Positions 21,413 to 63,769 of a stretch of DNA of 64,000 nucleotides are shown in pieces. Every line of letters begins with the position of its first letter. The stretch's first letter is position 1. The position numbers were made by a program, and so were the translations under genes. Location of the stretch: assembly GCF_026212465.1 (NCBI RefSeq), contig NC_080047.1, positions 38,046,313 to 38,110,312 on the forward strand, given 5' to 3'. The notes under the pieces were generated by a model. That model had not been told where the DNA came from. It was given only the letters and a program-made list of their open reading frames with translations, and ran no database searches. This DNA comes from Amaranthus tricolor. Its lineage: Eukaryota > Streptophyta > Magnoliopsida > Caryophyllales > Amaranthaceae.

Positions 21413-24400
21413 CTATGACATGACTTCAAGGGCCTCTCTCGTTTGGCCAAGGATATTGAACACTGTCGCGGCAATATGTGCTGGTGTTAGTCCAGCTTCG
21501 GCTAACTGGTCTGCTGGCGCACCATGTTCAATGTATCGATCAGGAAGGACCAAAGGTCGCCACTGCACACAAGTTCATAGCATATGAGACAACATGGAAC
21601 GGAGTAAATTAATTGTTAAATTGAGCTGGATTTATTGTGAATGCCAGCATAAGTGCACACAGTTTATAAGCCAATGAGATATATCCCATCCCAAAACCAT
21701 AGGACAATGGGAAGAAAGTTCTAATAACTTATAAGGTGTGCACACCATCTTTAATTTGTCGATGTGGGATAAACCATCCTAACGTTAATTACATTAGTAT
21801 TGATATGTAAGAGTTGTAAATAAACACATAGACTACTCAACATTTACCTTTAGTTTTCCATCAAGAAGGCCATCAAGAGCCATGAACTGAGCAACATGAG
21901 ATCCAAAACCTCCGATGGATCCCTCCTCGACTGTAATTAAAACCTCATGGGATTTTGCTAGACTTCGGATAAGTGCATGATCTAATGGCTTGCAAAACCG
22001 TGCATCTGCTACAGTTAGACGCAAGCCACGACCTTCAACTAAGGCTGCGGCAGCTAAACAGTATTGGACAGCTGCTCCGTAGCCTAGAAGTGCCACTGTC
22101 TCCCCTTCCTTCAAAATTCGTCCTTTTCCAATCTGCGACATATATGATATTTTTAATCCTATTGAAATAGTTGTCCCTTATTTAAATGGGGACCAAAATT
22201 TTTTAGTTTCGGATTTTAGTGTACTATATTAAAACGATTTATTGAATCATACGCTCTACTTATTTATATGAAGTTGCAAATGATGTTTGCTACCAAGGGT
22301 TAATCAGAAACAACCTGTCTGTTATAACAAACAAAGATAAAGTTGCGTACATATGACCCATATAGTGGGAATCCCTCATTGGCATTAGGGCAATAAAATG
22401 TTATAAATCTAGTAAGAATACCGAAAAATATTAAAGTTATGGAGTTCGTAAGATTGAGGCTCACCTCGAGTGGAACACCTTTGTTCCCAGGTGGCAACTC
22501 GATACCAATACCATTTCCTCTTGGATAACGAAAGCAACTAGGTCTATCATCAATAGCAGCGGCAGTAGCAACCATATGGAATAACTCTGCCTCGTCTGAA
22601 GGCGCCATCACTATCATGTTGGGAAGACATGCCATGAATGTGACATCAAAAGAGCCACAATGTGTAGGGCCATCAGCTCCCACAAGGCCTGCTCTGTCCA
22701 TAGCAAACCTTACTGGTAGTTTCTGTAAGTCCACATCATGAACTACCTGTATTGTAACAAAAAACGGATCTTTTACAAGGATTTACAATCGTGCATGTCA
22801 AAAATTAACTTCACCACATGCTATTAAGCCTATAGATAACTGTTACATGATTCACTACTCTCTTTGCGAACTGCGAATCAAAAAAAGCGAATGATGGTCA
22901 ATTTTTGGCTATTTTAGGGTCATTTTGAGCGAATCGTGAATCCAAAAAGCGAATTAACTGGCGAATCATGTTACACGTCTATAGATTTGACTAAACAAGA
23001 AGGAAAAGAAGTATTGCCTGATCATATGCCCTTTGCATGAAAGAGGAGTAGATTGCACAAAAAGGTTTAAGACCTTCACATGCTAAGCCAGCAGCAAAAG
23101 TTACAGCATGCTGTTCAGCAATTCCCACATCAAAGCAACGGGATGGAAAGCGTCTGTCGAAAAGATTTAAGCCTGTACCACCACCCATGGCAGCATGAAT
23201 AGCAACTATATCCTTGTCTACTTCTGCTTCTGCAATCAATGCCTCGGCAAAGTAGGTTGTATAAGACTGAGTGGTTGATTGGCCTTTGAATTGCTTGCCA
23301 GTAGCCGGATCAAATTTGGCCACCCCTACACCAGAATAAACAGAAGTTCTTAGCTATAAGATGATTCAAAATTCAGAAAAAAAAATGAGTCTGAACTAAG
23401 TAGGCTCGACAAAAGCGGACCTGATTTGTTATCCCAACCTGAACTTAACCTAAAGCAAGTGGGTTTGGGTTGAGACATTTGACCCGATTAAGCAAATGAG
23501 TCCATTTGACCTAACCAGTTATTAATGAGTTAGGTTAAGGTCAAAGTTTAAAACCTAAGCTTGTATAACCCATTTAATTAAACAACTTAATTTCGAGTCA
23601 AGTCAATCATTATAACCTAAACTTAAATTATTTATTATTTATCTATTTTTCATTGTAAATACAAAATAAACAACTCATAAACTAAAGTATAAAACAAAGG
23701 CCTAAAAACTAAGATGTAGTCAATGTTAAACTTTTAATGGGTTAAGTGGGTTGAAATCAGGTTGATTTAATCTATTACAAATCTGGCTTGAATTGTAATT
23801 TCCAACCCAATAAACTAAATGGGTCACGTTCGGATCAAGGGATTTTAGACCCGTTTATATTTGACACAAACTTAAAAGTAAGCTAGGAGACAAATAAATG
23901 AAATTTGTGAAAACACATATGCACTATATTAGTAAAATGTAGATATACCATGGTATTTATCTGCGGCTCTCTCAGCATAAGGATATCCTCGACCTTTCTC
24001 CGTGACAACATGTATAAGCACAGGACCTGTTGTTTTTGTACTCCTAACTTCTTTAAGTATAGCTACGAGATCATCTATATTATGGCCATCCACAGGACCA
24101 ATGTAATAAAGTCCAAGTTCTTCAAATAAAGTTGATCCTTCACCACTAATCATCCCTCGAGCATACTCATCAACTTTGGCCGCTAACTGATACATGGTCC
24201 CTCCGATTTGTTTGGTTACTCCCTGCAAAAATCCCCGTGGATAAATATAGATTATCTTTACTTATATATCATTCAAGAAGAGAAGCATGGTTTTTATCTC
24301 GGTATACTCTACCTTGGCAACTTCTCGTAATTCTCTTAGAGGTTTGTTCGATTGCAATCTACTCAAAGCACTGCTAAGAGCTCCTACAGGAGGTATAGGT

Positions 24401-26826
24401 CCTTCTAGGTTGGCAGTGGGTAACGAAACCTGCTTGTTATCGTTGAGAATGACAATCATATCAGAATCTAAATACCCGGCATTGTTCATTGCCTCGAAGG
24501 CCTGCCCGGCAGTCATGGCACCATCGCCAATAACTGCAACAACATTGTTCTGTCTACCCTTTAAATCCCTTCCCACAGCCATACCTATATAAACGAGAAC
24601 ACAAAATCGACCTTTTTCAGTAGAAGCATGATAATAGCATTAAGGTAAGAATATTTTATCCAAGGATTGTTTTTCGTGCAGAAGATGTTTTGTGCAAGAA
24701 AGTGACTCAAATGTGGCTAGTTCTTAACAACAATCTCTTAAGATGCCACTAAAAAATGTTTTCTTAGCATTATATATGTTTTCTTTGCAAATTCAGTCTA
24801 TTTGGTTAAATCCGATGTCTAAGAGTTGTTTACCAAGCGACACAATGGAGTCATTCAATGAACCAAAATGAATATGATCATAAGAGAAAGTTACCCAAGC
24901 CAGCCGAAATGCTGTTTGAACTATGGCCTGCACCAAAGCTATCGAATTCGCTCTCCCCTCTCTTTGTAAAACCCGACAATCCATTTGTCTGTCTCAATGT
25001 TCTCATCTTACCTCTTCTCCCCGTCAAGATCTTGTGTGGATAGGACTGCAAATTAATAGGCACACCATTTTATTGTCTATTCAAGCAAATGATTGATTAT
25101 ATATGCCCTCCATTGTCTAACTATCATAAAATGTTTATTTAACCCTTAAGATCCAAAAACACCGGTATGCAACATTTTCTACTCATTTATAGGTAAATAC
25201 TTGAAATGTTCAACATACAAGTTAGTACTCCTCTGTCTCGTTGAATTTGCTACATAATGCAAATTCAAATGAGATTTTTTTCAATGTTGTGTAGCATATT
25301 CAAAGATCGGATGGATCATATATCTCAGGCTATGTTACTTGGACTCTTCAAGTTGCTTCACGTACCTGTATCTAATCCTTGAGGCTCGGACACTGGTATG
25401 TCACTTAGACACTTCATTTTAGGCATAAAATTGAATATTTAGACGTATCCAACACTTGGACACGTACCAGTATCCGACATCAATACCCAAGTCCAAGTAA
25501 CATAGATCTCAAGGAGTAAAGTGTCAAAGACTATTATGATTAGAACATAGAAGATAAGGGAATGGTAAGGTGTTAGTTGGATGTGTATACCTGGTGACCA
25601 ACATCCCATAATATCTTATCTAAAGGAGCATCAAAGACATAATGAAGAGCCACTGTTAGCTCTACTACACCAAGGCTGGAACCCAGATGACCACCAGTTT
25701 TAGACACATTGAAGATCACATCTGACCTTACTTCGTCAGCTAATTGTTTAAGTTCCTGCATTCAAAGCCAATCCAATGAATACACAAAGGACCTTCTTCA
25801 AATTATAACAACAATACAACAATTCTATTACCGCGATGATGTTAAGTGTAGAGGTTGGTTTTGGTATGTGCAAGGTGCCCGAGTGCACAAACCCCGTAGA
25901 ATAAGGGGCGTCAAATATTGGTTGTCATTTGTTTACATTACCTTTGATTCAGTTTGATTACTTGTTTTTACGCCCAAAAAGAAAAAAAATTATAAAATAA
26001 TCATGGATTAACAAATTATTATCGTGTATTTTATTGCTAGGTGGCTCCTACCCAGCACGGTTGGAATTAGACGTACACAATCTTATACTCGTTAATATAA
26101 CACAAAAGGTTGTAGGTTGTTTTCTATTAGTCTTAATTCTTAAACCAATTAAAATCTTTTTAATTAAAAAAAATTAAAGTAAAAGCAAGTCAAAACCATC
26201 AAACTAAGTCATAATCAATAAAAAATCAATTTCAAACAATTGAAAGCAATGAGTTTCAACTAAGTTGTTAACAAAGAAAGAGGCTAATGCAAAAGGACCC
26301 TTTTACAAATAATTTTAAATCAAACCAAAACTAACAAATTGAACGAGGTTGAAAAATCGGGTCTTATTTCAGCTACAGCAAGTACACTTTTTCCGTACAA
26401 GATTTCGAGTTTGATTCTCACATACTACTCTATACAAGATTAAAAAAATTAAAAAAATAGAGAAGAGAGTACCTTAATAGATAAATTTTTCATATGAATT
26501 GGAAAGTTAATGGTATCCAATAAAGGAGTAGGTGGTTTTTCAGAGTGATAATCTCCTTTTTCAGCCAATGATGCCCTTACTCCATAAGACCTTCTCTTGA
26601 CCTGAAATACCCATTTTTTGTTAACATCAAAAAATCATTTTCCAAGCAAGAATTCATCAAAAACATGCAAAATTAAACACCCAACAAAAAAAAGACAAAC
26701 CTGAGAGAAATTTAGATTAGGGTGATTATACAGATGATGGGTAGTTTTAGAAAAAAGAGGGGTTTTACAGAAATCTGATGAAGTAAAATGGGCAGTAAAA
26801 GACGAAGAACAAAAACAAAAAGCCAT
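21413..26826 (-). CDS. DXS: 1-deoxy-D-xylulose-5-phosphate synthase, plastid (DXS1-type)
   Basis: Thiamin-diphosphate enzyme condensing pyruvate with glyceraldehyde 3-phosphate to 1-deoxy-D-xylulose 5-phosphate, the first MEP-pathway step in plastids. Exons in transcript order: 26826-26701, 26601-26473, 25755-25591, 25045-24895, 24584-24313, 24222-23949, 23325-23018, 22746-22465, 22132-21848, 21562-21413; together 713 codons, close to the usual ~715. Start MAFCFCSSS at 26826 is the first in-frame ATG; a Ser/Thr-rich transit peptide (about 1-50) follows. Landmarks: GGHLGSSLG (His108), ThDP/Mg motif GDGAMTAGQ (210-218) closing at Asn238, [11 protein letters not shown] with catalytic Glu443, [13 protein letters not shown] (492-504), C-terminal transketolase domain to about 700. 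Intron 7 begins GC rather than GT. Several introns carry MITEs. Sequence is closest in style to housekeeping DXS1 rather than DXS2; that subtype is inferred. Confidence 0.96.
21630..21785 (-). repeat. Dispersed repeat in DXS intron 9
   Basis: Read on the minus strand, it contains TATCCCACATCGACAAATTA, TTATAAGTTATT and CCATTGTCCTATGG in the same order as a plus-strand copy at about 46806-46935 (CCTACATCAACAAATTA, TTATAAGTTATTGG, CCATTGTCATAT). It looks like part of an LTR or a MITE family; boundaries are approximate. Confidence 0.5.
22838..22978. mobile_element. hAT-type MITE with perfect 8-bp TSD in DXS intron 7
   Basis: CTATAGAT flanks both sides (22830-22837, 22979-22986). Termini AACTGTTACATGATTC and, opposite strand, ACGTGTAACATGATTC are inverted repeats, and the interior is rich in GCGAAT/ATTCGC. 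The element lies in the intron that starts with the GC donor. A diverged relative sits at 56107-56255. Confidence 0.88.
23395..23880. other. AT-rich part of DXS intron 6
   Basis: Non-coding; many short GGGTT/AACCC and GACCCG words on both strands suggest an old foldback element, but no clean termini or TSD could be found. Confidence 0.35.
25330..25505. mobile_element. Foldback MITE with near-perfect 8-bp TSD in DXS intron 3
   Basis: Termini CTATGTTACTTGGACT and its complement (AGTCCAAGTAACATAG region) form the inverted repeat. Flanks ATCTCAGG (25322-25329) and ATCTCAAG (25506-25513) differ at one position, consistent with a hAT-type insertion. A reverse-oriented relative is in the RRM gene at 14857-15008. 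Confidence 0.75.
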
Positions 26827-32995: not shown

Positions 32996-34228
32996 AGGAA
33001 ATATATTTTAATCTAAACATATGCGCCAAGTACATAGGTTAGAATGATGGTGGATATAAAATTTATATTAAATAGGGACAAAAAATTTAAAGTCATAGTG
33101 AAATTAAATTTAATATATTGTATAAATTAAATTTGCAAAATATAAAAATTTTTAATCTGAACTAAAAAAATTAATATTTTTTTTAGGAAAAATTGATATT
33201 AATAATCTAAACTTTCACTCATCCGCTATAAATAATTTCACTTTTGGATAATTTTTTTTAATAATCCAACCTTTGCTCTTAGTTTGCTAGCAGCTTAATG
33301 TCTTATTTGCTTTTTGAACACTATTCATCTCTTACATTTAATTTGTATTTTATTATAAATTTATAAGTTAAAATATAGTCAAGTGGAATCTTTTTAATCA
33401 AAGGGGGTTAATTGATCCCATTGGCATGCAAGATTAGAAAAACCGTTATAGAAATAATACCAACTATTACTTAATAAAATCTACAATTTTTACTTACTAA
33501 CATCAAAGTAAAAGGTAAAAAAATATTTTGAGTCTATTCAAGGACGGAGTAAAAATTGACAAATTTTTTTAAGGTATTGTGCAATTTCTAAAATTATGAT
33601 ATTTTTATAAAAATTTTGTATCATTAAACACTTAACATATACTATGTAATCTAATTATGAGGCGTCCAATATTTTACGGCCCTGTGCGGTCGAACATGTT
33701 ACACAATACTATAATAGTGTGTAACAGTATATGGGTTGAATCCTTTACAGGAGTAGACCAAATGATTCCGATGTCCTACAATTTTAATTTTAAGTTCTAG
33801 AATTAAATAAAAACTCAATATATCTAATTTTATTAATATTGATTTTATTAAAATAACTTAAATTAAGTCGTTAAAAAATGAATTGTCATCTCAATTATTA
33901 AAATGGAAGAGAAAAATTAGTAATAGATTGATGACTAATAAGAAAGAGAGTAAAAGTTTGAAGGGTTGAAAAATTAAGAAATGAATTATTAAATATTTTT
34001 AAAAATTAAGTAAATGATAATTCATATTTGATGAATGTGTAAAAAATAAATAATATAAGAGAAAATATTTAGCAGTTAAAGAAGTTGCTTTAGAAAGAGA
34101 TAAAAAGAAAAGAACGAATGCAATTAAAAGAATTTAAACATATGACAGTTGAATTGTTAGGTAAAACTCTGCACAGCCCTAAAGGCCTAAACTGCCCCTG
34201 ATCCTTTATATACATGGCTAAAAATATA
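32996..34228. other. AT-rich intergenic DNA
   Basis: No gene seen. A short TTAGTTTGCTAGCAG motif near 33280 resembles a family of inverted repeats at 45538-45735. Otherwise featureless. Confidence 0.6.
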
Positions 34229-34594
34229 CTCCCTCTGTTCTTTTTTGATCTCTCACTTTAAATTTTTCACGCATATTAAGGAAGATAGAATCTTTGGGTT
34301 GTAGTGAGTATTATTTTAATTAAATAGTAGTGTGAAGTAATGATTGTATTGGAAGTATGAGGTTGTAGTAGGTATTATTTTAATTAAATAGTAGTGTGAA
34401 GTAATGATTGTATTGAAAGTATGAGAGAGAAAATAATTATAAATAAAAAAAGGGGTACATTAAAAGAAAATGGGGGGTTTTAAGGGGTAAAAGTGGGATA
34501 AAAACTTTTTAAAAATAGAAAGTATTCTAAAGTGGAAGAACTTTTGAAACTACCCGTTATAGTAATGTGGAAGATCAAAAAAGAACTGAGGGAG
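34229..34594. mobile_element. Stowaway-like MITE, copy 1 (366 bp)
   Basis: Terminal inverted repeat CTCCCTCTGTTCTTTTTTGA / complement of the right end GATCAAAAAAGAACTGAGGGAG, flanked by TA on both sides. It contains an internal 64-bp direct duplication around TATTATTTTAATTAAATAGT. A close copy lies at 48411-48766. Confidence 0.9.
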
Positions 34595-35913
34595 TATAAT
34601 ATATGTGAAAATATATACCAAAAGAAATGCATGAGTAATCAACTATATATTTCAATATCTATTATACTCACATTTGGTATTTTTAAACATATTTGTATCA
34701 ACTAAGATTTGATATATCAATAATTCAATATAAATATTTTCTTACTAATAAAACTTTTGATTAATAATTTCAAAAATCAACTAAGATTTAATATATCATA
34801 TATTAATATTGATATGCTAATCATTAATATGCTATATTAAAAAACAGTTTTAGATGAATTATTTCAAATTTATTATTAATTTTATTACAATATAATTTAT
34901 TTAAAAATAGCTTTTTAAATAAATAAATAGTAGTACTCCTATTAGAATATACTATAGATCATTAAATTAACTTTTATTAATTATTTTAAAAAAGTCGTGG
35001 ATGGCACTAGAAGCTATCTAATAATGGTCCCATCTATTAAAAATGAAGCGAAAAAAGTATAAATTATTTTATATGTCTCAATGAAATAACGGCAAAAATA
35101 AATAAGGTGAAATAAAGAAAAATGAATAAAAATGATAACAAAATATTATATTTTATGAAAAAGTAAAAAAATGCGTAAATAAGATGAAAATATAAATTAA
35201 ATAAGTAACTCAAAATTGAAAAAAAATAATGAGTCATGACTAGCTCATGACCAAAACATTAAATTTAAGGATTTCACACAAAACATTTGTAGGAACTTAT
35301 AATATGTTGCAAAACATACACATTAATTAGTATGCTTTAAGTGCATCTAACTTTATATAATCCAAAAAATCTCTTGTCTAAAGCTTGATATGCATTTTGA
35401 AACACCCCTTAAATGCATATAAAATACACTTTTCCCGACTATATTTATCCAAGAAAAATATAAAAGCAGATTTAATGGGTTTTAGACTTTTATTAGCATT
35501 TAAAAGGTCATGACCGATATCTAGGGTTGTTGGATTTATATCATAGTAGTGCGAAATGTGAAACACCCTTTTTTTATTCTGAATTGTTTGTAATTTGTAT
35601 TAAAACGCTATATAAACATGTCCAGAAATTTAATAGTAACGTTTTTTCCAAGACGGAAACAAAGAAATAAAGAAAATAAAAAAGTAAAAAGAAAAAAGAA
35701 GAAAGCGTAGTTGCATTGGTTTTTCAAAAAAAAAAAAATTATTGTTTTTCCTACTATACACTCTTTAATCTACTTTGTATGTCCTAATGCGAGTCTTTTA
35801 ATTGTCTTGGCAAGCTAGAGGTGTGATGATCAACAATAAGCAAACAATGATTAGAGTAAATGTGATGAGCTAAAATGGAATAAGTGCATCCACTTCTAGG
35901 TTTAGACACGACT
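34595..35913. other. AT-rich intergenic DNA
   Basis: No gene or recognisable element; homopolymer runs and scattered short ORFs only, up to the copia insertion site. Confidence 0.6.
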
Positions 35914-36474
35914 TGTTGTGCGACAGCGGAAGCAAGGTCGATGAACAATAATGAAACAACAAGAAATTCAATGCAAACAATAAGAAAATGACACAAGAAA
36001 TTTAACGTGGTTCACTATCAATGTGATAGCTACGTCCACCGGCACCGAGAACAAACAATTTCACTATGATCGCAAAGAATACTAGATGAATTACAATCAC
36101 GCTCACAAATTACGATGGCTCTCTTGTGATCTCTCTCTCAATTTGTGAATCATACATCCCTAGTGCTAACAAGAAGGTGTATTTATAATAAAACAACTTG
36201 AAAGACGGTTTTAGGAACTAAGTAACCACAAATAACAAACCACAAATAAAGGTAACCGTCCCAAAAGACGTTTCCCGTGAAAAACTGGCATTTCGTGACC
36301 TGTGTAAAACTACGCGAGCCGCGAAGTAGGAACAGAAGCAGCTCCGCGCCCCGCGGAGAATTACACGCCCCGCGTAGTTGATCAGAACAGTCTCCGCGCC
36401 CCGCGGAGGTCACTCTGACCCAAATTCATCTTCTTCCAATGGTGCTAGCAAGTTTGAGTCACCATTTAACAACA
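35914..36474 (-). repeat. Copia element 3' LTR (561 bp)
   Basis: Begins TGTTG and ends CAACA. Contains GC-rich palindromes CTCCGCGCCCCGCGGAG at 36342-36358 and 36392-36408 with a related CACGCCCCGCGTAG unit between them; the partner LTR lacks that middle unit. Confidence 0.95.
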
Positions 36475-36753
36475 ATCTCCACCTTGACGAAAACTCGTAT
36501 TCAGCAAATGAACTCATCAACACATAGTGAACATATCTCAAGCCAAAACCCGATGTAAAGCTCATGCATAAGCCGTACATCCTAATAAATCTTCAACCAA
36601 GACTCATCCCGAAAAGTCTCCAACCAAGACCTATCACCTACTTGTCACCAAGTATAACAACTCATAATGCTCCACCTGCATCACAAGCCCTGGGCAAGCT
36701 CCACCTTAAGGCCAACATGCCCGCAACTCCCCAACACCGCCCCTAAGGGCCTA

Positions 36754-39700
36754 CTACATCACATAGTAATCGATATTTAGTAAGTCTAAGCAATGTTTAA
36801 ACTTACTAAATGGAACAGACTTGGTAAAGAAATCAGCTGGGTTGTCAGCGGTCCTGATCTTCTTTACCTTTATCCTCTTGTCAGTACGCAAGAAATGATA
36901 CCTGACGTCAATGTGCTTGGTCCGATCATGGTGTACTTGGTCTTTAGCTAAGCAAATGGCACTTAGACTATCACAATACACCGTAGCAAAATCCTGTGCG
37001 ATACCCAGTTCACCTACAAGGCCTTTGAGCCACACAGACTCCTTAGCTACAGAAGTTAAAGCCATGTACTCAGCTTCAGTAGTAGACAGCGTAACCGACC
37101 TCCTGGTATCCACATCAGCTGCTATGTACATGGCTTTAACTGGACCCAAAGTAAACACATGGCTTGTTGTAGACTTCCAACTCACCACAGAACCACCCAA
37201 AGTAAACACATATTCGGTCACCGACCTCCTGGTATCCACATTAGCTGCATAATCAGAATCACTATATCCAGTTACCAAACACTCCTAACCATTTCCATAC
37301 ACAAGACCAATATCAGCTGTTCCTCTCAAATAGCGAAAAATCCTTTTCACCCCCTGCCAGTGCTCTCTCCCAGGTCAAGTCATGAACCTACTCACAACAC
37401 TGATAGCGTGCGCAATATCCGGCCTAGTACAGACCATAGCATACATCAAACAGCCAACAGCGTTGGCATAAGGAACTCTAGACATATACGCCAACTCCTC
37501 CTCAGTTTGAGGTGACATAGACAAAGACAGTTTGCAGCTAACAGATGTTGGTGTACTTATAGGCTTTGATTTCTCCATCCCAAAACGAGACAAAATCCTT
37601 TCGATGTAACTTTTCTGAGTCAAGAAAAGCTTACTTCTAGCCCGATCCCTATATATCTGCATACCCAAAATCTTCTTAGTTGGACCCAAATCTTTCATGT
37701 CAAATTCCGAGTTAAGCAACTCTTTAAGTCTAGCAATATCCGATTTATTCTTTGTGGCAACAAGCATTTCATCAACATATAATAACAAATAAATCATGGA
37801 ACCATCATTCAGCTTACTATGATACACACAGCAATCATACGAATTCCTATCAAAACCATGCGTAACCATAAAAGAATCAAATCTCTTGTACCACTGTCGA
37901 GGGGATTGCTTAAGTTCATACAACGACTTTAGCAATCTGCATGCATAATGCTCTTTCCTTGGAATCTCGAATCCCTCGGGTTGCTTCATCAAAATCTCCT
38001 CCTCCAAATTGCCATGAAGGAAAACCGTCTTAACATCCAGCTGCTCCAACTCAAGGTCATAATGTGCTACAATTGACAATAGCACACGAATAGAAGTATG
38101 TCGAACCACCGGTGAGAATATCTCTACAAAGTCAACCCCTTCTACCTGACTGAACCCCTTTGCAACTAGCCTAGCCTTAAAACGAACTTTCTCAAATTCA
38201 GATGACCCTTCTTTCTTCTTAAAGATCTACTTACACCCAACAAGCTTTCTCCCTTCTGGTACCTTCACAAGTTCCCACACTCTGTTCTTGTAAAGAGACT
38301 GCATCTCTTCACCCATTGCAGCAAGCCGTTGCGCAGACTCACTACAACTGATTGCTTGTTTATATGTGGCAGGTTTATATGACTCTACATCATCAGCTAC
38401 ACTCAATGCATAACCTGTCAAATTCTCAACAAAGCAATTCCTTCCTTCCATCTCTTCAATACACCTAACAGGCTTCTTGATAACTCGTCTAGGTCTCTCA
38501 AGAATGGTGTCAGATTGACTAGATGACCCCTGATTAGACTGCTCCACCTCCTCCCCAGAGTTAGAAAAAGATGGAACAACCTCAGGTTCAGGAGTACTCA
38601 TACTCGGCACTAGAACCTCAGCATCATCATCAATAAATTGTACTCGAGGTAAATCAGCAATTGATGACTGATGTACCTCAAGCACCCCATCTGTCTGTAG
38701 TATGTTCTCTCCTTCTTTCCCCAAGTCAGAAGACTCCGAGTGCTTCTTGGAATACATGGTGCTCTCATCAAAAGTGACATCCCTACTAAGAATGACTCGA
38801 CCCTCCGAAGGCGAATAGATCCTAAACCCCTTCACACCATCATCGTACCCAACAAAACACCCCGTCTTGGCTCGTGGATCCAGCTTACCCTCACTAACAT
38901 GATAATAAGAAACACAACCAAAGATCTTCAAATTAGAGAAACTAGGCAACTTACCACTCCAGATCTCAAACGGGATTTTGAAGTCAATTCCCAAATAAGG
39001 ATCCCTATTGATGATATAACAAGCTGTCATCACAACTTCACTCCAATACCTCCTCCCAAGCTCTGCATTAGAGAGCATGCATCAAACTCTTTCAAGCAGC
39101 GTCTGATTAACCCGTTCTGCCACACTGTTCTGTTGTGGTGTCATCTTGACGGTATGATGCCGACTAATACCCTCATTTGCACAGAACTGATTAAACTCCT
39201 CTTTGCAAAACTCTAGCCCATTGTCTGTTCGTAGCTTCTTGATCTTCCTACCCTGTCGATTCTCCACTAAAGCTTTCCATTGCTCAAAAGCTTTGAAGGC
39301 CTCATCCTTTGACTTAAGCAACCTAAGCCATGTGTATCGGGATTTGTCATCTACAAATGACACAAAATAGCGGAAACCTCCCATACCTTCAACCCTAGAT
39401 GGACCCCAGCAATCTGAATGGACATAATCGAGCACTTCATCAGTAATGTGAGCACCCTTGCTGAACTTTGACCTGTGTTTCTTCCCAAACACACAATGCT
39501 CACAAAATTCAAGGTTGGCAACCTTGATCCCGGATAGTAGACCCCTCTTAGACAAAAGCTGCATCCCCTTCTGTCCCATATGACCAAGCTTCATGTGCCA
39601 AATCTTGGTCATCTCCTGGTGAGATACTGATGCGCAAACTGCAGAACTAGACAGTGTGACACCCTCAAAGACATAGAGGGTGTTCCTCTTGATACCCTTA

Positions 39701-39930
39701 AGTACCAACTCCGAACCTCGATAAATGGACAGCTCCCCATCTGAAAACGTTCCATTGTACCCCAAATCATCCAAGGTACCCAATGAAATCAGATTCTTCC
39801 CCAAAGCAGGGACATGCCGCACCCTAGTCAATGTCAACTTTCGCCCATCTCTAGTCCTCAATCTTATGGATTCGATACCCGTAACCTTACAAGATCCGTT
39901 GTTACCTACAATAACATTACCCCATTGCAA
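36754..39930 (-). pseudogene. Copia pol (integrase, reverse transcriptase, RNase H), broken by stops
   Basis: One reading frame runs from 39930 to the natural stop at 36754 with four in-frame stops: TGA 39082-39084, TAG 38227-38229, TGA 37375-37377 and TAG 37285-37287. Integrase features are the HLGH-like zinc region, CEHCVFGK and the D-D-E core (HSDCWGP, RTDNGLEF). Reverse transcriptase has LDVKTVFLHG and YVDEM, where copia elements have YVDDM, so a catalytic Asp is replaced. RNase H (TEAEYMAL, DNPADFFTK) carries a 126-bp in-frame partial duplication (repeat starts 37096 and 37222). Not functional. Confidence 0.92.
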
Positions 39931-40880
39931 GACTCATACGTGTCAAACCAATCTCGACGCGGACTCATATGGAACGAACACCCCGAATCTAGAACCCAAT
40001 CATCAGAAAGATCCCCAGACTTAGCAGAACTCACTAATGCCAAGTCTTCCTCCGAATTATTGTTCTCCTTCGGTTTTACTTCAACTACAGCAGCTTGGGA
40101 CTTGCCCTTCCTCACCGGACAATTAGCCCTAAAGTGACCCAGTTCTTTGCAGTAATAACAGGTCTTCCCCGCAGTCTTACCAGATCCCTCATTGCCGTTT
40201 CCAGCACTCGACCCAGTATTGTTGCCCTTGTTAACCCCCTTCTTCTTTTTAGATTTCCCGGACTTAACAAACAACCCATTGCCACTATCCCCGTTATCAC
40301 CTATAGCCTTTTGACGAAGTTTCCTAGTATGAAGTGCTGCCTTCACTTCTTCTAGGGTCAGGGAGTCTTTACCAACAACAAACGACTCCACAAAATTCTC
40401 ATAGCTAGACGGTAGAGACACAAGTAAAATCAACGCAGCATCCTCATCATCTACTTTAACATCTAAGTTACGCAAATCTAGTAAAATAGAGTTAAGTTTT
40501 TCAAGATGTTCCTGTAAGGGAGTACCTGACTGCATTCGGAGGCTGAACAACCGCTGCTTCAGCAATAATTTGTTGGTCAGTGACTTAGTCATATACAATG
40601 ACTCCAACTTCATCCAAAGTTCCGCCGCTGTAGCCTGATCAGCGACCTCCGTGATGATATGATCATCCAAACTTAGTAAAATGGTAGAATGAGCCTTTTC
40701 CTCCATTACTACTAATTGCCCGTCGGTTAATCCATCATCCGACCCCGCAGTGGTACTCCATAAAGCCAACGGACGCCAGATTTTTTGCTGTTTCAACAGA
40801 GTCTTCATCTTTATTTGCCATAGCCCGAAGCTATTTTTCCCGGTAAATTTCTCAATTCTTATTGTAGGATCTCCGGCCAT
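39906..40880 (-). pseudogene. Copia gag and protease start
   Basis: Open frame from ATG at 40880, in the family-typical context MAGDPTIRIEKFTG. It contains the gag core (LLSLDDHI, TLEEVKAALH), a lysine-rich stretch, the zinc knuckle CYYCKELGHFRANC (CX2CX4HX4C) that binds RNA, and the protease active-site WVLDSGCSFHMS near its end. The frame closes at 39906, just as the integrase frame opens at 39930 in another phase, so a small indel separates gag-protease from the rest. Gag alone looks translatable. Confidence 0.88.
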
Positions 40881-40934
40881 TGTTTCACTCAAAAAACTCT
40901 CCAAGGAATTAAAACCTGAACTCTTGATGCCAAT

Positions 40935-41478
40935 TGTTGTGCGACAGCGGAAGCAAGGTCGATGAACAACAATGAAACAACAAGAAATTCAATACAAACA
41001 ATAAGAAAATGACATAAGAAATTTAATATGGTTCACTATCAATGTGATAGCTACGTCCACCAGCACCGAGAACAAACAATTTCACTATGATCGCAAAGAA
41101 TACAAGATGAATTACAATCACGCTCACAAATTACGATGGCTCTCTTGTGATCTCTCTCTCAATTTGTGAATCATACATCCCTAGTGCTAACAATCGGTGT
41201 ATTTATAATAAAACAACTTGAAAGACGGTTTTAGGAACTAAGTAACCACAAATAACCAACCACAAATAAAGGTAACCGTCCCAAAAGACGTTTCCCGTGA
41301 AAAGAAACTGGCATTTCGCGATCCGTGTAAAACTACGCGAGCCGCGAAGCAGGAACAGAAGCAGGTCCGCGCCCCGCGGAGTTGATCAGAACAGTCTCCG
41401 CGCCCCGCGGAGGTCACTCTGACCCAAATTCATCTTCTTCCAATGGTGCTAGCAAGTTTGAGTCACCATTTAACAACA
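40935..41478 (-). repeat. Copia element 5' LTR (544 bp)
   Basis: Direct copy of 35914-36474. Because transcription is on the minus strand, this is the promoter LTR. GTGTATTTATAATA at about 41194-41207 reads TATTATAAATAC on the minus strand, a TATA-like site. Confidence 0.95.
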
Positions 41479-42932: not shown

Positions 42933-43853
42933 GAAAAATTATTGGAAATAATTCCATCTATTGACGAACCGCTATGAATAATCCGTACTATCGATTATTT
43001 ATGAATAACGCCACCTTTCCACCATTTTTGCTCGTAGCGCCCCTTAGGAATCAGTAACCGACTAATGCAAGTTACCATATGGCATTTATTTCTTCTATCC
43101 CTTTTATTTTATCTATCCCCTTAGAAAGCTATTTTCAAACCATCATCTTCAAATTCCTCTCCTTCCATCTTTAAATTCCATCTTCAAATTCCTCTCCTTC
43201 CATCTTCAAATTGTTGTGTTGATTTCCTCCCCCTCATCTCCAATTTCAGATTCCTGCATCTTCATCTCCATATGCATCTGCATCAGTTGAAATTAAGGTT
43301 GGATTATCCACATTTGCATCTCCAATTTCAGAGACTGAACCGTGTGCTGTTGGTGGTCTCCATCAACATGGTAAGTTAATTCCATTTAATCTTTGATACT
43401 TTAATCATTACATTGTTCTAGTAGAATCAAACTGGTAATGCATTTCAATAATGTGTTGCATGTTTAGGTTAATGATTTCGAAAAATAAGCAATGTTCATC
43501 AACCCCAAACAACCAATTTCAAACAAGAATGTAATAGAGTTAAGGAAGTAGGTGAAGAAGGTAGGTGTAGAAGAAGAAGAAAAATGAAGAAAATAGGTGA
43601 AGAAGAAGAAGAAGAATAAGAATGAAAAAAGTTAGGGTAAAGGAAGAAGATGGGTAAACAAGATGAAGACATAAAAAGGAATGAGAAGAACACTAGCAAC
43701 GACTAGTTTGTAACCTGCATTAGCCTATTAATTTTTTCCAAGGGGTGCTACGAGCAAAAAATAGTGGAAAGGTGAGATTATTCATAAATAATCGACAGTG
43801 TGGATTATTCACAGCGGTTCATCAATAAATGGAATTATTCTTGACAATTTTTC
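42933..43853. mobile_element. Foldback element with ~150-bp terminal inverted repeats (MULE-like)
   Basis: The left arm (about 42933-43087) and right arm (about 43702-43853) pair over roughly 150 bp: TAATTCCATCTATTGA, GAATAATCC, TCGATTATTTATGAATAA, CCTTTCCACCATTTTTGCTCGTAGC with complements on the right. The interior has a pyrimidine-rich left half and a GAAGAA-rich right half. Long TIRs suggest a Mutator-like MITE; flanks are poly-T, so a 9-bp TSD cannot be judged. No transposase. Confidence 0.78.
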
Positions 43854-48121: not shown

Positions 48122-48410
48122 CTAATATTAATATAGCGTTGATTCTTTAAAAAGAAAAAAATATAACGTTGATGAATGGAGTCAGTTAAGATTAGAGATT
48201 AGAGACCATACGTAAGGTTAAGGACTCAGGTCCAGCTAATTTCCACATGTAAACAGCCAACCCCAATGGTCAGATTTCTTCTAGGTTCCTCTTTTTTAAA
48301 TCTTCTACTTCAATCATTCTTTACTACTCGACAAAATATCCCTAAAATATCTTTGCCCTTTTCCTATTTTTTTTTTCCTTTTTAGTTTTTTTACATATTA
48401 CTCCCTCCGT

Positions 48411-48766
48411 TCCTATTTGTTCTTCCTATTTGGGTATTTCACAAAGATTAAGAAAAAGAGAATCTTTAGTGGTAGTGGGTATTATTTTAATTATATAATA
48501 GTGGGAAGTAATGATTGTATTGGAAGTATGAGGTTGTAGTGGGTATTATTTTAATTAAATAGTAGTGTGAAGTAATGATTATATTGGAAGTATGAGAGAG
48601 AAAATAATTATAAATAAAAGAAAATTGGTACATTAAAAGAAAAGGGGGATTTTAAGAGGTAAAAGTGAGATAAAAACTTTCTAAAAATAGAAAGTATTCT
48701 AAAGTGGAAGAACTTTTAAAACTACCCGTTATAGTAATGTGGAAGATCAAAAAAGAACGGAGGGAG
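48411..48766. mobile_element. Stowaway-like MITE, copy 2 (356 bp)
   Basis: Termini CTCCCTCCGTTCCTATTTG and right AAAAAAGAACGGAGGGAG, TA on both sides. The interior is closely similar to 34229-34594, including the 64-bp internal duplication. Confidence 0.9.
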
Positions 48767-49069
48767 TAATAACTAAAAATAACAAATGAGAATTAGTGTT
48801 TCTCAATCTTTATTTGTCAGTTTTCAAAAATATTATATTTCTAATATATTTGATTTTTTTTATTAATTTTTCTAAGTGTATATATATTAATTTACAAAAT
48901 AGATAGATTTGTTAAAATACCATTTGTTTATTTTTTCTAACCTTAGCAATATAGCAACATTGATAAGGAAAATCATTTTTATTTATTTATAAAATATAAT
49001 TCCTACGTTTTATTATATTTGCAACTGGTTAATGGTACTTTTTTATATAATTAGGTAATACTTCTACTA

Positions 49070-57754: not shown

Positions 57755-60334
57755 CATTTCTGATTCATTACAGCGCACGCACGAGTGTGTTCATGCTCAT
57801 CAACAAAAGGGTGATCTAGTTTCTAAATTTGGGGGTGATCAATCTATATGCAGTATTGAAGCTTTTACTTGCTATATATAGAATTATGTACTATTTAGTA
57901 TCAACAATGTTAGACACTAGGCTACATTATTTGTAGTTGATTATTGAAGCATATAACACATTTTGTCGGCATTGGTTAGAGCATTTTCATTTTATGTTGA
58001 GAAATTATTTTTTTTGAACAAGGTAGATGCAAAAAACAAACATGGGACTTATGTTCTGATAGAAGGTCTAAATTGTAAAAGACACATAAACTATATTTTA
58101 CAGATATATGCTCAACTGATACGTAAAACTGTTATCTCTTGATACCAATTGTTGGTGAAAAGTATAGATTAGAGAATGTTTGTAAGATGAGAAGATTAAA
58201 GTAATAGAATAATTTAGAAACTTTGATTATCTTTTGAAATCCTAATTCTAATTGCTAATATAATAACAATTTTTCTAACATATACACTTAGTGTACACAA
58301 TAAATTTCATAATTATTTTAAAGTCAATAGAAGATATATTCTAAAATAAGTAAATATAATAATATTTTGAAAAATATTCGAATTGAAATTTCAAATAGTT
58401 ATTAATTTTATTGATTAAATCTATGCACCATATGTCAGAATTATGGTAATATCAATTATTTTATTAATTGAGAAAAAATTAACTCTTAAGTTAGTTTTGA
58501 TTGAAAGAAATTATCATAAGATTAATCCAATCATATGATAATTTTATTTTTTTAGTTTAAATATTACTCCGACTAATTTAATTGTTTGTATTTGGTGGTC
58601 TATGAGAGATGCACAATACAAATTACAAATTGGTTAATAAATCATTGTCTTATTGTCTGATATGATAATAACCTTTATTCCTCGTGTGTGTGGAGTTTCA
58701 GTTCAAATTTATTGTATTCTTTTTCGCTTTTCTAAATAACTGAAATCGTAGATTTCAATCATAAATTTATAAATAAAATATTTGAGAATATTAAGATTTA
58801 AAAGATCATTATTAAATTTCAATTTTAACTACTTTTAAAATAATAGTATTAGAATTGACTCATACAAATATAATTTTTTTTTATTTGCCAAATACTTAAT
58901 TTGAGCCAAATCAAATATTGAAAATAAATTTATCATTTCCAAATATAGCATAATAATTTAATATCATAATGATATTGTATTCACTTGAATAGTTATGAAA
59001 ACTCTAATAAGAAAATTCTACTTAATTCAATGTGATAAATTAAAGCAACAACTACAATAAGTCTCAAATATAAGAAAATTCTACTTCGATGTGATAAGTT
59101 ATTTCTTTTTACACATTATTGTTTAAATAATCAATTCTAACTTGATGTGTAAATTATTGGGACTACTATATAAAAAACGGGAGGAATTTAAATGGAATAC
59201 TTAGAAAGAAAAGAAATATATTTGGTTTAGAAAGAAATGTGGTAAAAAAGTTGTATGTGTGTGGTTATTTTATGGATTTAGGAAAAGTAACGGATTTTTA
59301 TTTGGATTAGTTTTCAAGGGATTAAAAACGATTCCAAGGATTTTCTAGTTATGAATTCGGATATTTAAACATATAGAAAAACAAATTAACAAACAATTGT
59401 TTTTGTAAGTAACATTCACTTGAATCAAACTTAGGATATGTAAGCAAGGATTACTCACTTAAGCATTTTACTTTTGGAATTTCACAACTTAACGTATAAT
59501 CTAACATTTTTTAGGCATTAATGTTACAACAACTTAAACTCCAAAAGTACAATGCTATTTTGTAGAGTTTTGAGGAAAGAAAGTTATTGTATATTAATGA
59601 AAAATGACAAGGGTAAAAACGAAATTTCACAACTTAACGTATAATCTAACGTTTTTTGGGCATTAATGTTACAGTAGCTTAAATTCCAAAAGTACAAAGC
59701 TATGTTGTGGAATTTTTTTAAAGATTTGCCACCACTAGCCTTTTGTAAAAGTCCGTGCCTACTATGTAGAATATCTCTATTTTATAAATATCAACTTTTA
59801 TAATTTTGAAGTATGTAGAATAAGAATTACTAAGGGTTGATTAGTCCATTGATAAGTATGTCATTTCAAAAGGGACAAATAGTTGAAAAATGAAGGAACA
59901 TTTAAAAAATTATTTTTTAATTTCAGTACAAAATTATAATATCAGACAAAAATATATAGTTGTATTCTAATTAAAATTTAAACTTTTGCTAGATTGTTAT
60001 TATTAGTTTAAATTGGACTGTTAGATTTAATATATTTGAAAATATATTAAACTTTTTTACATTGTAAAAGTTTAATTTACATAATATTGATTTTAAAGAT
60101 GATTTTAATTTTGACTTTTTTGACTCCACGTATTATAAATCCTAGATCTGCCACCTAGACTAACTAGAGAGTTAAGATTACAAACTTAGAACATGTACAG
60201 AACCAAAAGAGCACGATCGACTTAGTTTGATGATTCCCGAAGTTTAGCTTAATTTGGCTAAGACATTTTCGGGACATAGTCTCTTCTTTCAACACCCTTT
60301 GACTCCAAATGGTTAGGTCTAGATACCCATTGCG
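57755..60334. other. Intergenic region downstream of the transporter
   Basis: No gene seen. AT-rich, with one direct repeat pair described separately (59466-59710). The last ~100 bases before 60335 run into copia gag homology. Confidence 0.6.
59466..59710. repeat. ~100-bp direct repeat, 145-bp spacing
   Basis: TTCACAACTTAACGTATAAT begins at 59481 and again at 59626; both continue through TAACNTTTTT-GGCATTAATGTTACA and AAAGTACAA-GCTAT. The spacer holds AT-rich DNA. Confidence 0.8.
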
Positions 60335-60811
60335 GTACAATTATCAGCTTTAGATCATCCTATCTCCGACGAACGCTTGGTGCTCCAATTGGTGGGACGC
60401 CTTCAAAATGATGATTATCGGGTTGTTTCTTCTCTCATTCAACTGGCTGACCCAATACCTTCTTTTGATAAGGCATGCTCTATGCTTGAACTGGATCGCG
60501 TCAATCGTGAAACCAAATCCCAACAAACTCCGACAAATACCGTTTTGTTAACCACTCCTTCATCCAATCCAACACCTTCATCTAACTCACAAACCCAGAA
60601 AACCCCCATACAACAATTATAGTGGTCGACACAATAATGGTTACATTTACCAGGAGCGTGATTCATACAGGGGACGGCGAGGTGGTGGCCGATCTGGAGG
60701 TCGTGGTAAAGGGCAACAATACAACAGTAATCGTGGCCCTCCTGCTTGGTTTTCGGATTTTATGAACACATGAGCTCCATTTCATGGTTCTAATTGGTCT
60801 TCACATAAATA

Positions 60812-61286
60812 GAATTTTTGAAATTGTTGAGCGAAAAAATAAAAAAAATTAATCAAATAAGCGATTTTTTAAACTTTTTTCAAAAGTAAGCGTCCAATTC
60901 CCAAGCTGTGCTTTGGAGCTGTTCGCAGTTACTAACTGCGAACAGCTATAAAAGACAAACTAACTGTTCGCAGTTGGTAACTGCGAACAGTTCAAAAAAC
61001 ACAAAATAGTTGTTCGCAGTTAGACTGCGAACAGCAAAAAGACAAAATAGCTGTTCGCAGTTACTAACTGCGAACAGAAAAAAAAATTTTTTTTTTTTTT
61101 TTTTTTTCTGTTCGCAGTTAGTAACTGCGAACAGCTATTTTGTCTTTTTTGACCTGTTCGCAGTTACTAACTGCGAACAGCTCCAAAGCACAGCTTTGGG
61201 GTTTGGACGCTTACTTTTGGGAAAAGTTTAAAAAATCGCTTATTTGATTAATTTTTTTTTATTTTTTCGCTCAACTTTTTTAAATT
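60812..61286. mobile_element. Foldback element made of six short palindromes
   Basis: The whole 475-bp insert folds back on itself: GTTGAGCG, TTAATCAAATAAGCGATTTTTT, AAGTAAGCGTCCAA and CAAGCTGTGCTTTGGAG at the left recur as complements at the right. Inside are six palindromes, CTGTTCGCAGTTA plus its complement, at 60919-60945, 60964-60990, 61010-61034, 61051-61077, 61108-61134 and 61154-61180, with an A-run/T-run centre (61078-61107). Direct flanks TTCACATAAATA (60800-60811, 61287-61298) are identical over 12 bp. Superfamily unassigned; no protein coding. Confidence 0.93.
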
Positions 61287-63769
61287 TTCACATAAATACG
61301 CCCCTCCTTTTCCTAATCCATTTCAACCCACTTCTCAACAGGCCCATTTGACTTCTTATCCACAACAAGGGATATTAGGACCTCAACACAATGCTCCAGC
61401 GCAGTTCGTCGATTCTAATTATCAACCCACTGATCTTTCTAATCTATTCAATTTGGACAACTTATTAAAGCTTTGCAATGTGACAATGGCCGAGAATTCA
61501 AACATGATGACTTTTATAAGTTTTCACAAACTCATGGTATGATTAGAACGATTAATAATGTTTGTCGTTCTCTTCTCTTCCATGCATCTCTTCCTAAAAA
61601 ATTTTGGGTCGAAGCTCTTAACATGGCTACATATTTATTAAACATTCGCCGCACTTGTGTTCTTGATTTTCTCACTCCTATGCACCTACTCTATCGTAAA
61701 AGTCCATCTTATTCTCATCGTCAAGTCTTTGGTTGTTTATTATTTTTCTAGGCTATCCGACTTCACATAGGGGATACCGATGTTTTGATCTTAAAAGTAA
61801 TAAATTTATTATTTCTCGACATGCGATCTTTGATGAACAGGTTTTTCCCTACGGCTTCATTATAGAAACCAAAGTGGCAGGATTATAAATTTCCCTCTTC
61901 TAATATTGAACCCATACCATTACTTGTCCACAATCCCACCCCACTAATTCAACCCAATCAAGTGTCCAAGGAATCAATTCCTGTACTTGTTCCTGTCCCA
62001 CTTTCAACTTCTGTTTTGACTTAAAAAATGAGCAGTAGGTCATCCACCCAACCTCCTCCTCCTTCAACTCTTAAATCCTTGCCTCACCTAGTTTGCTAAC
62101 TCTAGGTGACCATACCGCAACCCACTCTCCACATTTAGCTACCAATCAAATATTCCAACAGCGTACTAAATCTATGCACACTCGTTCTAAGAGTGGGATA
62201 ATCAAATCAAACCCAAAATATGCTACCCTTGCTCTTCTTTCTTCTTCCTCAACCATTTCTCCTATTCCAAAATCATATCTTTCTGCCCTTCAAGATCCTA
62301 ATTGGTATAAGGCGATGTGTGACGAATATGATGCCTTGATTGCCACTCATACATGGGATTTAGTACCTCGTCCTCTTAATGCCAATGTGATTCGAAATAT
62401 GTGGGTATTTTGTCATAAGGAGAAGTCAAATGGACAATTTGAGCGGTATAAGGTTCGACTTGTGGCAAATGGCAAAGGCCAAGAAATTGGTGTTGATTGT
62501 GGTGAGACATTTAGTCCAGTTGTAAAGCCTACTACAATTCACACAGTTTTAAATCTTGCAGTTGCTAAAAAATGGGGTATTCACCAACTTGACGTCAAGA
62601 ATGCTTTTTTGCATGGGGATTTGCAAGAAACGGTCTATATGCATCAACCTTTGGCTTTGTTGATCCTAATGTTAAACATGTTTGTCTTCTTTGTCGATCT
62701 CTTTATGGTCTTAAACAAGCTCCTCGGGCTTGGTATCATCACTTTGCTACTTACATTTTGTCTCGGGGTTTTATTAATAGTAAGAGTGATCCATCCTTAT
62801 TTATTTTTCGCCGAGGGTCTGAGATGGCGTATTTGCTTTTGTATGTGGATGATATTATCCTTACATGTTCATCTGACGCTTTACGACATAAGGTGACTGG
62901 TTTTCTTAGCTCTGAATTTTCTATGAAGGATCTTGGACCTCTTTCTTATTTTCTTGGTATTGTCGTTACTCGTACTTCGAATACTATGTTTTTATGTCAA
63001 GAAAAATATGCTCAGGAAATTCTAGCTCGAGCTAACATGTCTTCTTGCAAGTCTGCCACAACCCCTGTCGATTCTAAGTCCAAGCTAAGTGTTGCTAGTG
63101 GTTCACCCATTGCTGATCCGACTTCCTACATGAGTCTTGCTGGGGCTCTACAATATCTTACGATTACCGAACCCGACATACCTTATGCTGTACAAAAAAT
63201 CTATCTTTTTATGCATGACCCTTGAGAACAACATTTTCATGCTATGAAGCGAATTCTTCGTTACATCAAAGGTACTCTGCATTATGGTCTTCATTTGAAC
63301 TCTTCTCTTGCTTCTGGCCTCGTTTTATATTCAGATGCTGATTTGGGAGGGTGTCATGATACACGTCGGCAATCTTATTTCTTCGTCATCTAAACGTCAG
63401 GCTACTATATCTTGTTCCACTGCAGAGGGTGAATACAAAGGGGTAGCTAATGTTGTTGCTGAGACAGCTTGGATCTGAAATTTGTTGTTAGAGCTTCATT
63501 GTCCGTTACCTAAGGCCACTATTGTTTATTGTGATAACATTAGTGTTGTTTATATGTCACATAATTCGATTAATCACCAGCGTACGAAACACGTTGAGTT
63601 AGATATTCATTTTGTTAGGGAGAAAGTTGCTCTTGGACTCATACGAGCTTTACATGTTCCTTCTTCATTTCAGTATGCAGAAATTTTTACCAAGGGCCTC
63701 CCCACCCCGTTGTTCACTTCTTTTCGTTTCAGCCTCAGTGTTCGTCCATCTCCCGCTTAACTGCGGGGG

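Follow-up and report, generated by a model that had tools for sequence, protein, structure and literature searches.

A foldback element of Amaranthus tricolor with tandem palindromes in its arms is very probably a nonautonomous Mutator-like MITE

Results

A foldback element lies within a damaged copia

We analyzed a stretch of 64,000 nucleotides of the Amaranthus tricolor genome (contig NC_080047.1, positions 38,046,313 to 38,110,312), which we call the window and to which all coordinates below refer. Its plus strand holds exons of an RNA recognition motif protein at positions 3685 to 16082, with one RRM match (24.3 bits) and an RBM19/MRD1-like appearance by eye, and its minus strand holds exons of a 1-deoxy-D-xylulose-5-phosphate synthase at positions 21833 to 24639 (DXP_synthase_N, 86.7 bits; Transket_pyr, 72.2 bits). 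A copia at positions 35913 to 41478 has long terminal repeats that are 93% identical and gag and reverse transcriptase frames on the minus strand that are broken by stops. Near the end of the window, remnants of copia sequence flank a foldback element of 478 bp (positions 60812 to 61289).

The upstream copia remnant (60323 to 60811, plus strand) is gag-like, with a PF14223 match of 12.8 bits that is below the cutoff of 27, and it carries one frame change and one in-frame stop. The downstream remnant (61299 to 63757, plus strand) has a clear RVT_2 reverse transcriptase domain (61.4 to 96.3 bits), an rve match of 14 bits that is below the cutoff, and a segment at 63479 to 63757 that is RNase H-like by eye and has no Pfam match. 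Read by eye, the copia sequence passes abruptly from a gag-pol linker to integrase-like sequence. When one copy of the repeat flanking the foldback element is retained, the copia frame is open across the site (...GSNWSSHKYAPPFPNPF...), which argues that the element entered a copia. The copia host is damaged independently of the insertion. A preliminary description of this DNA had the element splitting a copia gag and pol, which is roughly right, in that the element lies between a weak gag-like segment and the pol of an already damaged copia.

Tandem palindromes make up the inner part of both arms

From each end inward, the element consists of an outer repeat that is rich in AT, measures about 107 bp, and ends in a small hairpin of the CCAAAGCTGTGCTTTGG type, followed by a tandem array of palindromes. 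The outer terminal inverted repeats (TIRs) lie at positions 60812 to 60918 on the left (plus strand, AT-rich) and 61181 to 61289 on the right (minus strand), and the outer arms are 91% identical over about 104 bp. By sequence reading, the inner edge of the left TIR is the hairpin CCAAGC-TGT-GCTTTGG (60901 to 60916), one base shorter than its right counterpart, CCAAAGC-ACA-GCTTTGG (61183 to 61199). The six palindromes of 25 to 27 bp have the arm CTGTTCGCAGTTA and are spaced by A-rich linkers of 16 to 19 bp that resemble one another. Four are in the left arm, namely, U1 (60919 to 60945), U2 (60964 to 60990, one mismatch), U3 (61010 to 61034, shortened and with one mismatch), and U4 (61051 to 61077), and two are in the right arm, U5 (61108 to 61134) and U6 (61154 to 61180); U1, U4, U5, and U6 are perfect palindromes with 13-bp arms. 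An A-run/T-run center (61078 to 61107) separates the arms. The arrangement of four plus two palindromes around this center, as given in the preliminary description, could be located by coordinates in every part. The foldback of about 475 bp described there also stood, with its length corrected to 478 bp because the last TTC belongs to the element terminus. The element therefore has a long TIR, the outer repeat plus the palindrome array, and its inverted repeats are composite, with tandem subrepeat arrays in both arms whose number varies across copies. Tandem Repeats Finder reported an array of period 41 with a consensus of about 44 letters.

The window holds 10 palindrome registers whose 12-bp arms are not made of A and T alone, and nine of them are inside the element. 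Counting palindromes of any composition, the window has 57, compared to 0 or 1 in 20 shuffles of the whole window that preserved base composition and not dinucleotides. The whole strand of the element is predicted to fold as one long hairpin, with energies of −313 kcal/mol as RNA (z of −36) and −216 kcal/mol as DNA (z of −33), and in each case, none of 100 dinucleotide shuffles folded as well. The earlier suggestion that the units extrude separately describes a possible structure. The predicted stability of the full-length hairpin is nonetheless much greater than that of the units alone, which gave −142 and −144 kcal/mol when RNA pairing was limited to 30 and 45 nucleotides, respectively. No conserved RNA family matched at gathering score in positions 59500 to 62500. 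The longest reading frame inside the element has 73 amino acids, and a search for homologues gave two candidates, neither of them significant.

The element belongs to a large family with common termini

We searched the A. tricolor genome (a eudicot of the Caryophyllales; 519,850,330 bases in 45 contigs) and found 1,781 exact palindrome units, compared to none for a reversed-pattern control. Fifty of these sites fell in 31 regions, and extrapolation to all 1,781 gives an estimated 1,100 or so places with an exact unit. The exact unit pattern occurred zero times in the viral contigs and zero times in the bacterial and archaeal genomes searched, and the element had no match in plasmids. A genome search with a 501-bp query gave 1,506 first-look candidates, of which the best 40 were scored, with 87 match rows. 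From these we took 39 other copies, whose best rows were 79 to 95% identical, and compared all of them with the element of the window.

Termini could be set in 39 of 40 copies, the exception (L039) having no recognizable second end. The termini are GAA...TTC or near it, with up to three substitutions over 15 bases, and the copies with set termini are 419 to 527 bp long. The other copies that the preliminary description had asked for were thus found, and they share termini with the element of the window. The terminal 15-mers differ by subfamily; 15 of the 39 copies pair the same two unlike end types and others have matching ends, a mixture that suggests recombination between end types. The layout of four plus two units is present in 23 of 39 copies, within a range of 3+2 to 5+2 and 4+3, and the arms are asymmetric in 38 of 39, counts that are biased because resemblance to the window decided which copies were taken; in L036, L040, and L043, there is no A/T run at the center, and the split between arms is uncertain. 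Given how general the asymmetry is, the 4+2 layout of the window copy looks inherited rather than the result of damage. These copies are short and numerous, are without coding capacity, and have common ends, as expected of miniature inverted-repeat transposable elements (MITEs).

An exact 12-bp repeat, TTCACATAAATA, flanks the window element at positions 60800 to 60811 and 61287 to 61298, just as first described, where it was read as a 12-bp target site duplication (TSD). Comparison with the family rules out that length. With the termini placed by the family motif, the duplication is the 9-bp sequence ACATAAATA, flush with the element at positions 60803 to 60811 on the left and 61290 to 61298 on the right (both plus strand), and the TTC that precedes the right copy (61287 to 61289) is the element's own end. 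The match of these three extra bases is a coincidence that recurs at L046. Part of the 12-bp repeat, 3 of its 12 bases, belongs to the element after all, an objection that the preliminary description had foreseen; this alters the TSD and does not undo transposition. Within the same likeness-selected and so biased set, 25 of 39 copies have an exact flush repeat of 9 bp and 5 have one of 10 bp, while 9 have neither, two of these (L036 and L037) being off by one base. As a control, left and right 9-mers taken from different copies agreed exactly in 0 of 1,482 comparisons; allowing one mismatch brought the number to 4.

We also took a sample by position, namely, the first 50 of the 1,781 exact unit sites, which lie in 31 regions. 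These regions gave 31 clusters of one to seven units each, counts from which single units lacking an exact 27-mer were dropped, including L059 and one end of L062. Seven clusters had exact 9-bp repeats, and 12 had repeats with no more than one mismatch, among which that of L062 is spurious; the terminus motif fits the window's subfamily best and fails in many clusters of diverged subfamilies in this sample.

The preliminary description favored transposition over local rearrangement, and the family bears this out. A rearrangement that formed the palindrome in place would account for the palindromic form alone, but dozens of copies on many contigs have common termini and flush duplications, and the flanking 9-mers differ between copies (0 of 1,482 across copies). 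We consider a local origin hardly credible.

Long relatives encode MULE transposase

Several longer elements in the genome have the same kind of ends, among them L060 and L062, each from one of the sampled regions. The element L060 is 3,048 bp long, with palindromes at both ends and flanks that agree at eight of nine bases; L062 is about 4.2 kb, also with palindromes at both ends, and its flanks agree at seven of nine by eye; and L079 is a 4.0-kb element, divided over two regions, with TGCTAATGT (9 bases) at both ends, or 10 bases by eye (GTGCTAATGT). A further relative, L110, is 5,616 bp long (ends set by reading) and carries four units in one terminal array and three in the opposite one, with flanks ACGAAATGT and ACCAAATGT that agree at eight of nine bases by eye. 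Between its arms are transposase domains of Mutator-like elements (MULEs), namely, MULE (PF10551; 61.3 bits, cutoff of 27.6), DBD_Tnp_Mut (PF03108; 26.2 bits, cutoff of 25), and SWIM (33.1 bits, cutoff of 19.6). The outer TIRs of L110 are 86 to 91% identical to those of the window element (left TIR, 86% over 107 bp to one L110 end; right TIR, 91% over 108 bp to one L110 end), the small hairpin motif is present at both L110 ends, and the right arm of the window element is 91.2% identical to an L110 arm over 182 bp. By this likeness, the window element has MULE ends without a coding interior.

L110 also has two matches to the plant mobile domain (PMD; 136.5 and 62.6 bits, cutoff of 34.9), in open reading frames (ORFs) located after those of the transposase. 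In L062, the PMD match is clear (44.1 bits, cutoff of 34.9) and the DBD_Tnp_Mut match is weak (22.4 bits, cutoff of 25). The PMD ORFs lie beside MULE transposase in both elements (L110, 451 to 2314, minus strand; L062, 2373 to 3062, minus strand), and the PMD may be a capture. Fusions of PMD and MULE sequences also occur in two Heliosperma proteins, P0018 and P0022. Heliosperma belongs to the Caryophyllales, and to judge by these protein sequences, PMD capture may be old in this order.

We searched the genome with the DNA-binding piece of the L062 transposase, scored the best 150 matches of 1,003 candidates, and fetched 30 transposase loci, one of which (L080) is the query's own. In a scan that allowed up to six substitutions and had no shuffled control, palindrome units were present in the 1.5 kb 5′ of the transposase piece at 26 of 30 loci, the query's own included; L086, L098, and L106 had no units, and L102 had units downstream only. 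Exact units were present in the same 1.5 kb at 11 of 30 loci, compared to about 0.15 units expected in 45 kb from the genome density of exact units.

Because the long relatives encode MULE transposase within ends of the same kind, we assign the family to the Mutator-like elements, and the element of the window is very probably a nonautonomous Mutator-like MITE with foldback, composite inverted repeats. MULE-type TSDs are 8 to 11 bp, usually 9, and those of the family are 9 bp (25 of 39 copies) or 10 bp (5 of 39). The family had gone unrecognized at first, and 12 bp was taken as too long for Mutator; with a TSD of 9 bp (10 in some copies), this argument fails. Assignment to hAT, to some other superfamily, or to a novel superfamily whose TSD is 12 bp would draw on the exact 12-bp repeat at the window copy and on the 12-bp repeat at L046 that also starts with TTC. 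But 30 of the 39 copies have TSDs of 9 or 10 bp, and relatives with the same kind of ends encode MULE transposase, which makes such an assignment very improbable. For hAT in particular, the TSD is 9 to 10 bp and not 8, and the five ORFs scanned in a long relative have MULE and not hAT domains. With regard to Pack-MULEs, the window copy holds only the A/T center between its TIRs.

MULE transposases act in trans on short derivatives. The window element very likely moves by means of a transposase that its larger, Mutator-type relatives within the genome encode. It would have arisen from a long relative by loss of the coding interior, the two arms meeting at the A/T center. The transposase of the long relatives would cut at the outer termini and join the element to a staggered 9-bp target, in this case a decaying copia.

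The palindromes are the least divergent part of the ends

We compared the parts of the element for divergence from the window copy in 38 copies. The units differ at 2.3% of positions (136/5,812), the linkers at 4.1% (110/2,694), the outer TIR at 8.5% (593/6,981), the A/T center at 11.0%, and the terminal 14 bp at 13.5% (144/1,064), the highest value; the copies share ancestry, which inflates this test and the double-change test below and makes the p-values of this comparison too small, and both these values and the double-change counts are biased because units were chosen for their resemblance to a consensus. The terminal 14 bp, where the transposase would cut, differ most, a poor fit to the rule that functional parts change least.

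If pairing between the arms of a unit were maintained, matching double changes should be in excess. Among 203 units, there were five matching and one nonmatching double changes, compared to 3.6 doubles expected. Among 74 units, there were 19 matching and 8 nonmatching, compared to 16.4 expected; in this set, all doubles together (27) exceed the expectation, and the test is not clean. We saw no clear excess of matching double changes and set aside compensatory evolution of the unit arms. Since matching doubles are barely above independence, the letters rather than the pairing seem to be kept. Low unit divergence without a clear compensatory excess favors a protein-binding role, and we propose that the 27-bp palindromes are putative subterminal sites, repeated along each arm, to which a dimeric transposase would bind, a proposal to which we give about an even chance. 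Docking of such a dimer on the palindromes would explain both their low divergence and the variable number of units.

The palindromes might instead be kept not as protein sites but for the shape of the DNA or RNA, a cruciform or hairpin with a part in replication, in excision, or in the processing of small RNAs. The very stable predicted fold (z of −36 for RNA and −33 for DNA) fits this idea, as does the identity of the innermost 51-bp arms compared to 91% for the outer arms (Fisher p of 0.03 with the terminal 14 bp and 0.17 without them). Against it, matching double changes exceed expectation slightly if at all, and the conservation is located at particular letters; we judge it unlikely.

Low unit divergence could also reflect recent homogenization of the array. 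The units would then be functionless, a tandem array grown and homogenized by slippage or unequal exchange that rides on an outer TIR used by the transposase. Unit number does vary (one to seven per cluster; 3+2 to 5+2 and 4+3), and the period-41 array has linkers that are alike. But the linkers of the same array diverge more than the units (4.1% versus 2.3%), and units persist at 26 of 30 transposase loci. We consider functionless units unlikely.

Discussion

What began as an unexplained palindrome cluster is now a large family whose probable driver transposases are encoded in the genome that it inhabits. MULEs of the foldback type that have composite TIRs and TSDs of 9 bp are already established, with Tm1, MuTAnT, and, by citation, FARE as examples. 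The uncommon trait of the amaranth family is that its ends hold tandem self-palindromes, which are their least divergent part. We met no description of the family in the open literature searched. Among the 17 papers listed whose texts contain words of the unit sequence, none was recognizably about this element by its title or the start of its abstract; some were plant microRNA papers.

The closest likenesses, taken from the parts of the reports consulted, are with other Mutator-type foldback elements. Tm1 of Meloidogyne, a Mutator/Foldback element (PMC3169594), has composite inverted repeats with a variable number of internal motifs, mostly 9-bp TSDs, and both MITE-like and transposase-bearing members in one genome, with a MULE-type transposase. 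It differs in that its motif of about 14 bp is not called palindromic in those parts, its 7-bp ends are asymmetric, its transposase is of the Phantom/FLYWCH type, and its host is a nematode. MuTAnT of Medicago (PMC4486113) comprises plant MULE MITEs of several sizes, 292 bp among them, whose foldback TIRs are modular and whose TSDs have 9 nucleotides, but it has GGGG ends and TA microsatellite targets, and the sections seen describe no tandem self-palindromes. FARE of Arabidopsis, as cited in the reports on MuTAnT and Tm1 (PMC4486113, PMC3169594), is another foldback MULE of a plant, and each of its ends has long palindromic repeats. Tetris of Drosophila virilis (PMC4079207) is an apparently nonautonomous foldback element with tandem TIR repeats and an 8- to 10-bp TSD, assigned to Mutator by its TSD; its repeats (TIR-220) are larger, and the portion of the report consulted mentions no transposase-bearing relative being found. 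Plant MULEs with tandem TIRs (PMC3310237) likewise have ends duplicated in tandem, possibly aiding recognition, but as far as that account was seen, entire TIRs are duplicated and not short palindromes.

For the proposed docking role, the tested parallel is Galileo of Drosophila (PMC3688188), whose long, repetitive TIRs resemble those of Foldback and contain internal repeats; extra transposase-binding sites lie within two of these repeats. In the part of that report seen, internal repeats as transposase-binding sites are shown for Galileo and called untested for Foldback and Phantom. Galileo is not homologous to the amaranth family, being a member of the P-element superfamily with a THAP domain. 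The amaranth family allows a sharp test of whether repeats inside foldback ends are transposase-binding sites.

The PMD in the long relatives offers a testable link to transposon silencing. PMD-bearing MULEs in which the domain is fused to the transposase are reported, in the portion of the source consulted (PMC5418596), from Amborella and a number of grasses; they share with the long relatives a plant mobile domain on a MULE and differ in host, amaranth being a eudicot. A broader scenario, in which the amaranth family evolved self-palindromic, dimer-type docking arrays as the working ends of its elements together with a PMD protein derived from host silencing as a counter-silencing factor, strikes us as quite unlikely as a whole. 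If true, it would mean that PMD capture also took place among eudicots, in addition to the cases that the source names from grasses and Amborella.

From the parts of their reports seen, we set aside the SIRC repeats of Arabidopsis (PMC10342631), Foldback4 (PMC2955051), and barley Hvu_Abermu (PMC9168764) as less close. The A. palmeri MITEs that neighbor EPSPS (PMC3677901) are not this family; in the text consulted, their TIR is 13 bp long and their duplication is TAA. The window holds other repeat structures as well. Two related MITEs at positions 34225 to 34598 and 48388 to 48779 are 89.5% identical, are Stowaway-like by eye with ends TACTCCCTC..., and each have an internal 64-bp tandem duplication. 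A second inverted-repeat structure at positions 42933 to 43853 has 144-bp arms that are 82% identical and is flanked by a 9-bp repeat, ATTTTTTTT, that is low in complexity and therefore not diagnostic.
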